NCBI GenBank assembly: GCA_031213475.1
Contig: JARUPZ010000004.1
Span: 1,537,501-1,601,500 of the forward strand
Length of the DNA stretch: 64,000 nt
Source of the DNA: Nereocystis luetkeana
Lineage: Eukaryota; Sar; Phaeophyceae; Laminariales; Laminariaceae
Direction: 5' to 3'
Position 1 is the first letter of the stretch. The number at the start of each line of letters is the position of its first letter. Under the pieces are notes generated by a model. That model was not told the origin of the DNA. It did not search any database and saw only the letters and a list, made by a program, of their open reading frames with translations. A program made the translations under genes and the position numbers. This document shows, piece after piece, positions 16,843-56,800 of the stretch.

Positions 16843-16947
16843 TTAACCCTTTTAGCACCGCACTCCCATATGGGGGGACAAAACACTCAAATTATACCTG
16901 GTAAGTAGTTTGTCCCCAAAACGGGACTGGGGTCCTAGAAGGGTTAA
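16843..16947. mobile_element. PAL97 copy with internal TACCTGGTA
   Basis: A 97-bp palindrome copy lengthened by a TACCTGGTA at 16895-16903. The copy at 42626 has CTAAGTAG at this site where this copy has the 9-mer followed by AGTAG, so a TA became TA-CCTGG-TA. Confidence 0.85.
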
Positions 16948-17576
16948 GAAGAACAAGGGATTCGGCGATAGAAATGTGCAGTAGCCCAAATTGTCCGACA
17001 AGATAGGAAATTACAGCCCAAGAAACAGCATCGATCGACGCCCACACGAGAAAAAAAACAAATTTCCTATTCGGAAACGCCGAATCAAATAAGAAACGCG
17101 GACGACAGCACTTTGTACAACACCCAACACCCAACAACCTGGATTCCTCCCGAGGTGTGGAGGTTCCTGGTTTCCTTCGCATTTGATATTTTTCATTTTT
17201 TAAATCAACCGGATAATGTCCGATTAATTCCCTGCGGCCAAAATCCCCTATAGATGGAACGGTTGAAGAAAGCCCATGCAAAATAAAAAACGTCTGCTTA
17301 AGAAACACAGCTGGAGTGTGCCTACAAATGAAACATTGGGCCTCAACGGCAAACTGACGAATAGGGGCAGTAGGCAGTACTGCTGGACAGTAGCAGTAGT
17401 CCAAGAAAATGAAAATTCAAGCGCCTGGAACCACATTTTCAACTTACAGCGACGAGGTCCGCCCCGAAGGAAGTCACGGAAAGTAATGTCGCTTTGGCAC
17501 ACTCACGAGCGTGCACCAAGGAGCTCACATCTGCCGTGCCAATTTTTGGCTAGATGAAAACGTTCGGAGCCAGGTT

Positions 17577-53800: not shown

Positions 53801-56800
53801 GCACAAACTATTAGTAGCCGCAGTATGCCGCAATACGCGCAACAGCTATCATACCGTATGTACTGCAGCTATTAGTAGCTGTTGCCACACAAGTACGATA
53901 CAGGACGTAATATGGTGGCAACAGTACTGCAGAGTACCAAGTACTCGTTCGTTGTGCAGTAGGCTCTCGCGCTCTCGCATGGTTTTCGACGCAGATTTTT
54001 GCCCCCCCCTCGCCCTATGGTCATACGACTACGGCCATACATGAGATCGAGTACATCTCTCCTATCGAGTACATCCCCCGCCTGGGTCTACGGCTATACG
54101 ACTACGGCCATGCATAATATCGAGTACACCCTCCCCCCCCCCCCCCCGCTGTCTGTTTTCTGCTTCCCAATGTATGGCACTCCCTGGTCAACTTGACAAT
54201 GGGAAGCCCCCCCCCCCCCCCCCCCCCCCCCCCCCCCCGTGCATATTGGCGTCGGTTGGGAATGACGCTGTAAAACGCGCCAATCAGTGCGTGAGCTAGA
54301 CAGCCAGGGTACATACCGTTTTTGCTTTGCGGTCGCCATGGCGGGCGGCCGAGTTAGATCGTTTGTGCTCGGTGGAGAACCTTTAACTCCGCTCAAGAGG
54401 AACGTCGTATCACGTAGTGTGTGTCTGGTAAGACACCCACGAGGCTGCATCCCCCATTGTCGTCTCTGCCAGTGGCCACACCAGAAAATAAACCAATTCA
54501 TTCGACGCTGCATCCATACCTGGTATGCAAGAAAGTCCACCTCGTGGCGGTTCTTGGTAAGACGCAGCCCGCCCTTTATGCGACTCGCCGAACACCTCGC
54601 GGCGCTTCGCGCTTGATGTAAACAATGGGTTACACATGCCAGATGATCTAAGAATACATTTAGTTGGCATGGGCATGCTATTCCTAGAGAAGAAACATGT
54701 CGACGACTGCCTGGTCGGTGAAAACATGACGTCTACCGTCCTCGCATCGTGGGGACGCGAGGGTCTATGGTAACATGACTACGGGCATGCATGAACATGA
54801 GTGCACCCCCCCCCCCCCTTGTCTATTGCTCTGCTTTCCAATCCCTGACACCCCCCCGTCAACGCAACTTGAACTATATATCCTTGTTTTCACTCCCACC
54901 CCCCTGCGCCCCCCTGTCTGTTGTTCCGCCTCCCACCGTCCGGCACTTATCCGTCAACTTGAGCACGCTTGCCTTGTTTTCATTCTCTCCCCCTCCGTCC
55001 CGCCCCCGTGTCTATTGCTCTGCCTCCCGATGGCTGGCAGCCCCCTGACAGTTCGAGCTTCAATCCCCTCGTCTATCGCTCCCTCCCCCTCCCCGTGCCC
55101 TTGCCTATCGCTCTGCTGCGCGTGTCTGAAAGTCCCCTGTCAACTTTGAGCACGACTTCCCTGTCTGCACACCTTCCCCTTCCCCCCCGCCCCCCCGCTG
55201 TCTACTGTTCGCCCTTGCAATGTATGGCACTCCCCTGCCAAAGTTGAGCACGATTTCCTTGTCTTCACCTTCCCACGCTTGCCCTTGTCTGTCGCTTGCT
55301 TCCCGTTGTTTGGAACTCCCCTGCTGTGGGCGAACAGGGTGATCTTCCACAGCGTGTCTAAGCGGGCTAACGGCGGCAGGGGCATGATCAAGCTGCCTCC
55401 GACCATGCTCAAGCAAATCGGTAAGCGCTCGTATTTATTGTGCTTCCACATCGGGACCACTTCAAATACAGTTTTGAGCAAACGATGCGAAAACATACAT
55501 ACCCCTAGTTTTTTTTTTCTTTTTTCTTTTTACATCACTTTTTACTTTCCAACCTAGCTCGTAGGAGGTTTTACCCTCGGCGATCTTCTGGACAAGCCGT
55601 GGTCACAGGTGTCGTCCCTTCTTCCCCCCGGTACGTGCCTTTAATTTTTGTCGTGCATAGGGTTCAGCATTCCCACTGCTCGTCGATTTTCATCGAATGT
55701 AGCTAACTCACGCTCTCGCGCTTTCCGCTAATCAATTTCTTCAAGCAAGAAAAAGTCCCTGCGAGCATGTGCACTCGATGAGACTTGAACCCACGAAATT
55801 GATCTTGATAGGCACGCGGACCACCTACCAAGCCACCGGGGACGCCGGCTATGTGCTAGAGAAATAGGGATTATTAGTCTAGTGGAACATATATTTGTTA
55901 CTTGAGGAAACATGTTTATCTACATATATACCCGAGGTATAAATATAAATATTTTACATGTAATGACCCTCTAATGTAATAATTTCTCCGTAAAATTCTC
56001 TAAACAAATGGCGTATCAACAAGAGATAGAAAAAATATTACGACACCATTGTTGCATAATGATACGCAGCAAGTTTTATGAACAATTCTCGTTTTTTTTA
56101 TAGAGGGTAAACGTATTTGCCGTTACATGGCTTGTGCATAGTTATTCTCGTTTAGCTAGAACTCGTGCTGAAGGTCCTGCTGCTCGAACAATTTGACCAC
56201 CTTTACTTCATGCCTATTCTATGTTTTGGATAGAGGTCACTGTCTCTGTTAATAAACTCTGTCTCTCAATATAAGAGTAATTTGCATTCTACAGGTAATT
56301 GTAGTTGTAAACGGTCCTTTTTTTTCGGAACAGAATTACACTATTTCTTTTTCTGATGTATACATATACCATGCGTACCACTATACCGCTATTATTAATA
56401 GACTGTACTATTAATATATAGCGAATGATACGTAAGTGTTTATTTCTTACAGTAGCTGCCCCTTTTAGGACTGCAGTCTCGTTTTGGAGACACGCTGCTT
56501 AGAATTTGCGGGCTTCGTCCCCCAAACCAGTCCGCAGTTTTGACCTACAAGGGTCGTAACAGGTAGATACTGGGTTATATGCAGTATAGTGTTGCCCATG
56601 TTGCAGTGTGTGGTGTGGCGAACCATTGTACGACGAAGCACCGCGGCGGCATGAAAATAAGGGATGGGAAATAAAACCGACAGGAGAAGCCTTTAAAAAA
56701 GTTAGCCAAGTCCCCCCCCCGCCCTCCTCCACCACTCTCTTTTTACCCCACCTTGGCAGCGCCTGCTTACAGTGTTCAACACATCGGACAGATCAGATAG

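Follow-up and report, generated by a model that had tools for sequence, protein, structure and literature searches.

Abundant TACCWGGTA palindromes in the genome of the brown alga Nereocystis luetkeana as likely excision footprints of a TA-specific DNA transposon

Background

Excision of Tc1/mariner transposons leaves 3' overhangs, and the footprint of one of them, Sleeping Beauty, is the trinucleotide CAG (passages of PMC8151067); in the part of PMC7913693 that treats them, footprints of Tc1/mariner elements are quoted as 2-4 bp long. The present work concerns the palindromic word TACCWGGTA (W stands for A or T), found in a stretch of 64,000 bases from Nereocystis luetkeana (assembly GCA_031213475.1, contig JARUPZ010000004.1, forward strand, positions 1,537,501 to 1,601,500). 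This whole stretch is called the window below, and positions are counted from its first base. An earlier note on it had interpreted TACCWGGTA words, here called scars, as remnants of excision of a TA-targeting transposon.

Sleeping Beauty resembles the scars in two respects, as far as described in the passages of PMC8151067: its TA target is duplicated, with a short terminal remnant lying between the two TAs, and in CAG, like in CCWGG, only the centre base is not self-complementary, which gives rise to a W outcome. It differs in its footprint of 3 nt and its known donor, the scars being 5 nt long. CTG is the alternative Sleeping Beauty footprint. Stowaway miniature inverted-repeat transposable elements (MITEs) and Osmar mariner-like elements of grasses share with the scars the TA target and the terminal remnants of 1-4 bp (excerpts of PMC1925063, PMC4561436 and PMC3660474). 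They also share the arrival of a second element next to an older footprint, since at one grass Stowaway site re-insertion took place at the same TA (PMC1925063, in part). The 1-4 bp terminal fragments beside the TAs of grass Stowaway elements are varied in the excerpts of the same source, whereas CCWGG dominates here, with approximately 180,000 scars in one genome. Finally, the zebrafish Tc1/mariner element ZB has a palindromic AT-rich preference around TA, as do the scars; in the passages of PMC7913693 it covers the six bases directly around TA, while that of the scars is strongest at positions -7/-6 and -1. KolobokP, met in the literature on kelps and transposon footprints, has no bearing on the scars in the part of PMC9587614 concerned. 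In the literature searched, judged mainly by title, no earlier report of TACCWGGTA as a transposon scar was found.

Results

Exact copies of TACCWGGTA in the window number 36, namely 23 of TACCTGGTA and 13 of TACCAGGTA. Dinucleotide shuffles of the window contain 0.44 copies on average and at most 2, and a third-order Markov model yields 0.65, at most 4; the observation of the earlier note, at least 36 copies against about 0.5 by chance, is confirmed. Every copy in the window has W at its centre, and S (G or C) occurs in none. Words one mismatch away from the scar are also in excess (38 versus 14.7 expected), and going by this, part of the scars look decayed and inherited. TACCNGGTA is the commonest odd 9-base palindrome of the window (36), the runner-up TAGGNCCTA reaching 10. 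In the whole genome (465,085,209 bases in 1,987 contigs), 182,395 copies are present, one per 2.55 kb, as compared to 1,744 of a reversed-pattern control. Chance or base composition as the origin of the word is ruled out by the shuffle, Markov and reversed-pattern counts.

For closer analyses, a 280-kb sample was composed of the window, two 100-kb stretches (regions A and B) and the sequences L002 to L004. Region A (C1:200001-300000) was picked when the genome listing had already shown scars as far as 276400 on C1; the choice of region B was made without prior view of its scars. Some counts refer to a sample of 264 kb. In the latter, W occupies the centre in 143 words and S in 5 (1.4 expected for S), and a stricter, fourth-order model predicts 6.5 CCAGG words where 143 are found. 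Open reading frames (ORFs) of at least 200 amino acids hold 10 of the 143 scars and 1,596 of all 13,756 TAs, a mild deficit on which nothing is built here.

How the scars arose can be read from sibling copies of the repeats that they interrupt. The flanks of each scar were joined with a single TA and compared against the window. Of four empty sites named by the earlier note, in which a single TA was said to have become TA-CCWGG-TA, three read as described. The two scars inside the repeat MITE-A, TACCAGGTA at 36428-36436 and TACCTGGTA at 49338-49346, face TA in 20 of 24 sibling alignments each, and TACCTGGTA at 54517-54525, in a C-tract repeat, faces TA in the siblings at 32770 (CATCCATATGCAAG) and 60370 (CGTCCATATGCAAG); an adjacent gap excluded this last scar from the tally given below. 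The fourth, TACCTGGTA at 16895-16903 in the 97-bp palindrome PAL97, is mixed: TA is present in the siblings at 42622 and 44892, the other siblings show one-step changes, and all alignments together give TG 6, CA 5, TA 4 and CG 1. Further cases include a scar within MITE-A in L002 (TA in 18 of 26 sibling alignments) and 51485-51500, where TACCTGGTA shares its TA with a decayed unit CGTGGTA, so that two units abut; the sibling at 60377 has a single TA there, and 2994 reads TACGTGGTA. TACCAGGTA at 39424-39432 has a weak sibling with TA at 39271, and TACCTGGTA at 24672-24680, located in a TCGATAT repeat array, faces TC in two siblings and TA in one.

Queries with 136 scar runs of the 280-kb sample returned a gap-free empty sibling for 26 scars. 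In 19 of the 26, TA is the prevailing dinucleotide of the siblings, which agrees with the insertion at TA and duplication of TA known from Tc1/mariner footprints. Of 130 sibling pairs whose flanks lie less than 40 bp apart, 81 show a spacing of 0 bp, 14 a spacing of 7 bp and 3 a spacing of 14 bp, the others being scattered; several pairs may stem from one scar, and these counts are not independent. The 91 wider pairs have, by eye, the look of neighbouring repeats or local duplications and not of donors. A list of insertions compiled without regard to the motif (siblings from the window, L001 and L002) contains nine 7-bp sites: five exact scars, one variant (44591) and three unrelated sequences. 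In TACCWGGTA, a TA site has gained 7 bp and its TA is duplicated. The conversion of TA to TA-CCWGG-TA put forward in the earlier note is hereby borne out, and insertions in other repeat families do fall at TA, where that note would have taken their absence from TA as a refutation.

This result bears directly on the reading of TACCWGGTA as a protein-binding motif kept by selection. An exact palindrome in very high copy number would suit such a function. The 9-mer, however, comes about through insertion of 7 bp at the TAs of unrelated repeats, its units abut one another and decayed copies are numerous; the empty sites in unrelated repeats contradict a functional motif, and we reject this reading as having hardly any probability left.

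Age and inheritance of the scars can also be judged from siblings. Identity between a scar copy and its empty sibling reaches 97% (A 23233 versus A 25079, in region A), so that some scars must be recent compared with the duplication of their repeats. At one site, three paralogs carry no scar (L009 5588), one scar (5029) and two scars (4425), respectively; at another, the paralogs A 75044 and A 76400 differ in the centre base of the scar, while the copy near A 75898 lacks a scar. For 16 runs there are siblings that align gap-free across the scar itself, and the best sibling also has the exact scar in 11 of them. These observations touch on the possibility that germline elements were removed by a somatic excision programme in the tissue that was sequenced, leaving the scars there, in a manner similar to the internal eliminated sequences (IESs) of ciliates. 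Many scars with no donor seen in the sample would agree with it. Formation in the sequenced tissue alone is nevertheless disfavoured because some scars look decayed and inherited: the one-mismatch words described above seem partly old, and exact scars are shared between siblings. IESs of Paramecium are bounded by TA and leave a single TA upon excision, unlike the 5-nt scar. Somatic excision is therefore a very improbable source.

Sequences around the scars show a distinct target preference. In 131 runs of the 264-kb sample, with both sides pooled and positions counted outwards from TA, position -1 is a purine in 204 of 262 flanks (background 161), -6 is A in 117 (background 68), and -7 and -8 are A or T in 211 and 173 (backgrounds 138 and 136); at -9 to -11 nothing clear is seen. 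The preference is palindromic and AT-rich, as expected for Tc1/mariner footprints, and reaches 8 bp out. It persists once 15 runs with near-scar flanks are dropped, and the left and right flanks of the window scars agree in it. Seen from either TA of a scar, -1 is G and the partner TA lies at -7/-6, which fits the same preference. A TA-specific integrating element would produce both the target logo and the repeated use of scar TAs.

Such re-use is evident from tandem scars that share TAs. The 131 runs include ten double scars and one triple, none of them inside the window. Genome-wide, exact double scars amount to 15,917, versus 2 for the control, each triple being counted twice; this is about 220 times the 72 expected from scar density alone. 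Replication slippage or another duplication of the 7-bp unit might build these arrays without repeated insertion. Same-centre doubles do outnumber different ones, 40 to 19 (p 0.009 versus equality), among the 59 plus-strand doubles in the matches listed. As the centres nevertheless differ in those 19 pairs, and in 6 of the 12 neighbouring pairs of the 264-kb sample (the same in the other 6), tandem events are partly independent. Duplication would, besides, still require an insertion for every single scar, and as the whole explanation of the arrays we consider it improbable. Repeated events are needed for tandem scars, with duplication probably adding to the same-centre class.

Discussion

We propose that TACCWGGTA words are excision footprints of a TA-specific cut-and-paste DNA transposon, a reading that we hold with considerable confidence. 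The element would integrate at TA and duplicate it. Its transposase would later cut the non-transferred strand a few bases inside each end, so that CC and part of the next bases would remain on each flank. End joining would then pair the overhangs around a single W/W mismatch, which repair or replication would fix as A or T. TAs of existing scars may be hit again, their TA at -7/-6 and G at -1 suiting the target preference, and 7-bp ladders would result. The donor would be either a MITE-B/Stowaway-like mariner element with CCA ends or an unseen element with CCWGG ends and a stagger of 4 or 5 nt. Of the earlier excision-scar interpretation, the 7-bp gain and the duplication of TA are upheld, and the target logo fits it; MITE-B is a candidate source. 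The footprint spectrum in 264 kb is narrow (143 CCWGG words versus 11 of TACCGGTA and 5 of TACCAGGGTA/TACCCTGGTA). The likeness of the scar maker to Tc1/mariner is one of behaviour, from which membership can be inferred at best. CCWGG lies within the 1-4 bp per side quoted for Stowaway in excerpts of PMC1925063; we do not file the scars as a proven Tc1/mariner product because they are more uniform and because of their length.

Several observations weigh against the excision of such an element. The length of 5 bp is outside the 2-4 bp given for Tc1/mariner footprints (PMC7913693, in part). Seven of the 26 scars do not face mainly TA in their siblings (TG 3, including one tie, GA 2, GT 1, TC 1). 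At TACCTGGTA in 9875-9883, within a GATCATACA repeat, two siblings have GA and one has TA. Weak alignments (A_74851, A_19756) or membership in one shared repeat affect a few of the 19 TA cases. The flanks also deviate at -12 (chi2 12.3), more weakly and in a way that the model does not explain. TAs of scars take 8.4% of hits, about four times the 2.3% predicted by the target model; therefore something beyond a simple logo is at work. The surplus of same-centre pairs means that some tandem pairs are probably duplications. No donor, MITE-B included, was found between sibling flanks of scars in 280 kb, and 117 non-scar TACCWGG ends from the same sample fall into 8 clusters of 2-3, none of which is like a terminal-repeat family. 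No DDE_3 (PF13358) transposase was detected in the genome, with 30 candidates scored and a control that was positive for 3 genomes out of 14. PF01359, the model for mariner, gave 0 genome matches, but its control was silent.

The search for a donor nevertheless points to one repeat family. When 1,061 TACC[AT] ends of the 280-kb sample were grouped into 33 clusters, MITE-B (TACCACTCTGTCC) was the only recognised transposon end among the 12 largest. MITE-B is short and non-coding, with terminal inverted repeats (TIRs) flanked by TA in the manner of Stowaway/mariner-like MITEs; its ends are conserved inside and varied outside, and its TIR resembles that of plant Stowaway elements. Where they begin CCA, its ends match the CC and W of the scar in part. 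Copies of 82 bp at 36124-36205 (ends TACCACTCTTTCC / TACCGCTCTGTCC) and 44025-44106 (ends TACCTCTCTGTTC / TACCGCTCTGGAC) represent this candidate donor family in the window, together with minus-strand ends TACCACTCTGTCC at 45129-45141 and 63271-63283. Clear ends in 280 kb total 10, too few for comparison of target logos.

If MITE-B or a similar Stowaway-like mariner element was the donor, 3-nt 3' overhangs of CCA ends would have been joined over an A/A mispair and filled in, as the earlier note suggested. The W/W mismatch of this scheme suits the W centre, but its one-base A/A overlap is without a base pair. Third base of the 10 TACC-starting ends is A in 6, as that note's CCA termini require, and G in 3 and T in 1, yet scar centres are W in 143 and S in 5. 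Words close to the scar give a divided picture of the joining. CCAG words (TACCAGTA/TACTGGTA) are in excess (37 versus 10.8 expected, 15 by the fourth-order model) and explicable as CCA + G, and TACCGGTA, expected from CCG ends, is mildly so (11 versus 4.2 in 264 kb). On the other hand, TACCATGGTA, the no-overlap product of CCA ends, does not occur in 264 kb, and TACCATA/TATGGTA, the full-overlap product, is up mildly (45 versus 31.2, or 34.6 by the fourth-order model). Loosely matched MITE-B-like ends lie on the TA of a scar in 2 of 58 cases, where about 0.6 would be expected by background (1.0% of TA flanks), and both are decayed, which lends no support. Further TACC-ended inverted pairs exist besides MITE-B, for instance at 8708-9148, and grass Stowaway footprints are varied according to excerpts of PMC1925063. 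MITE-B is thus a serious candidate, about which we are slightly more doubtful than confident.

Alternatively, the donor may have ended in CCAGG/CCTGG (or CCAG/CCTG) and been cut with a 3' stagger of 4-5 nt, giving overhangs self-complementary save for the central W. Such ends would account for the uniform CCWGG, with C:G pairs on either side of a single mismatch, and for the nearly W-only centre, and they have a parallel in Sleeping Beauty, whose CAG footprint derives from terminal bases (passages of PMC8151067). In chemistry, a CCWGG end with a 4-5-nt stagger fits better than the CCA + CCA scheme. Against it stand the 117 TACCWGG ends without a terminal-repeat family and the CCTG words (TACCTGTA/TACAGGTA), which show no clear excess (12 versus 8.7) while CCAG words are up. 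We know of no 4-5-nt stagger in Tc1/mariner elements. Taken together, a CCWGG-ended donor is quite possible, short of probable.

No full element with TACCWGG ends was recognised in the window or in 280 kb, and no convincing broken repeat with a long TA-flanked insert was seen. Two candidates were set aside. A 1.9-kb pair of MITE-B ends, L019:739-2644, has by eye no transposase-like ORF that would mark an autonomous element and probably consists of two separate ends. The TACCTGATTTTGGC repeat (17844, 18719, 47119), considered as a donor end, defines no clear element.

Most excision footprints described so far seem to come from small numbers of assays or alleles. If our proposal is true, this one genome holds about 180,000 of nearly one type. 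So many near-uniform scars are dense enough for measuring target choice, end-joining outcome and repeated hits in nature, and their density could allow jumps to be estimated that left no surviving copy. A stagger truly of 4-5 nt would extend knowledge of how TA-specific transposases cut. In practice, scar words can mislead motif searches, and inside a reading frame each would cause a shift of 7 bp. As a wider and rather doubtful extension, one might imagine a TA transposon lineage, perhaps in brown algae at large, that cuts with a 4- or 5-nt stagger and leaves a near-fixed, self-complementary CCWGG scar, itself a favoured target and hence the seed of 7-bp ladders; the genome would then be a fossil record of some 180,000 excisions outnumbering surviving donors.

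Other features of the window

The remaining scars of the window are given here; like those above, they rest on the exact-word count, with sibling details taken from flank comparison, and strand is not assigned. Some have neighbours of note. A decayed element similar to MITE-B (approximately 1253-1333) has as its outer TA the right TA of TACCTGGTA at 1246-1254. Directly before TACCAGGTA at 1713-1721 stands the one-off copy TACCAGGTG, at 1704. TACCAGGTA at 11898-11906 adjoins a minus-strand end that loosely resembles MITE-B, and TACCAGGTA at 45033-45041 lies about 90 bp before a MITE-B end. TACCTGGTA at 18865-18873 forms a local duplication with TACCTGGTA at 19042-19050, their left flank being common. 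Other copies of TACCTGGTA are located at 1944-1952, 7034-7042, 7396-7404, 18553-18561, 25276-25284, 40402-40410, 45494-45502, 46265-46273, 46765-46773, 46809-46817, 50388-50396, 57819-57827, 59740-59748 and 63137-63145, and of TACCAGGTA at 10035-10043, 29333-29341, 38078-38086, 40637-40645, 44775-44783, 47184-47192, 49698-49706 and 53095-53103. A variant scar, TACCCTGGTA, with six bases between the TAs, occupies 44589-44598 in a MITE-A copy; by eye, other copies have a single TA.

Two further words are over-represented. TATTAATA occurs 19 times in the window (2.2 expected) and 57 times in 264 kb, for example at 62514, 51778, 39210 and 34677, and several siblings have a single TA in its place (62514 in MITE-A, 51778). 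It may be a second footprint type, which MITE-A ends, TA|TTACGGGGGACC, could leave. TACWGTA, a word of Sleeping Beauty type, was counted 90 times in 264 kb, where 35 are expected or, under the stricter model, 39.5. At least 2 copies, at 5212 and 8056 of the window, face TA in siblings. Of 66 MITE-A ends in 280 kb, 40 have C at -1, 38 have A at -2 and 32 have T at -3, counted outwards from the TATTACGGGGG end, a bias that would reflect either a longer terminal repeat (TA|CTATTACGGGGG) or the target TACTAGTA.

Microsatellites and repeats abound in the window. TACCTGATTTTGGC, with 18 matches at up to 3 mismatches versus 6 expected, appears in hairpin-like arrangements at 17844, 17875, 18689, 18719, 47119 and 47150. 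The inverted repeat at 8708-9148 has ends TACCACATGTTCGAGAAA / TACCACTTCTTCGAGAAA (22 of 24 bases) and another pair, 8889-9027, nested inside. More TACC-ended inverted pairs are found at 4201-6418 and, outside the window, within large inverted repeats of region A. Region A has two long inverted repeats, A 18704-19972 and A 29273-33139, with end-to-end lengths of about 1.3 kb and 3.9 kb, the former carrying scars at mirror positions in both arms.

A MITE-A word was also matched in two contigs of a genome collection. L002 (JALZWD010000061.1), recorded as a metagenome-assembled genome (MAG) of Flavimaricola sp., contains MITE-A and repeats similar to PAL97 and, over 8,000 bases, three scars, while L001 (JALZVB010000211.1, a bacterial MAG) has MITE-A near its start, in approximately the first 115 bases, and no scar. 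Such alga-like repeats in bacterial MAGs are probably contamination; L002 probably represents DNA of an alga, which may be the same species or a relative. The viral collection held no match for MITE-A words, PAL97 words or the reverse transcriptase described next, and the genome collection none for the latter. At 14611-15369 of the minus strand, the window carries the end of a reverse-transcriptase-like ORF (query 14611-15306), for which 413 relatives were found. Among the 120 matches listed, the best is 80% identical and comes from a record labelled as a Parasphingorhabdus MAG, and relatives from Sphacelaria and Ectocarpus are present as well.

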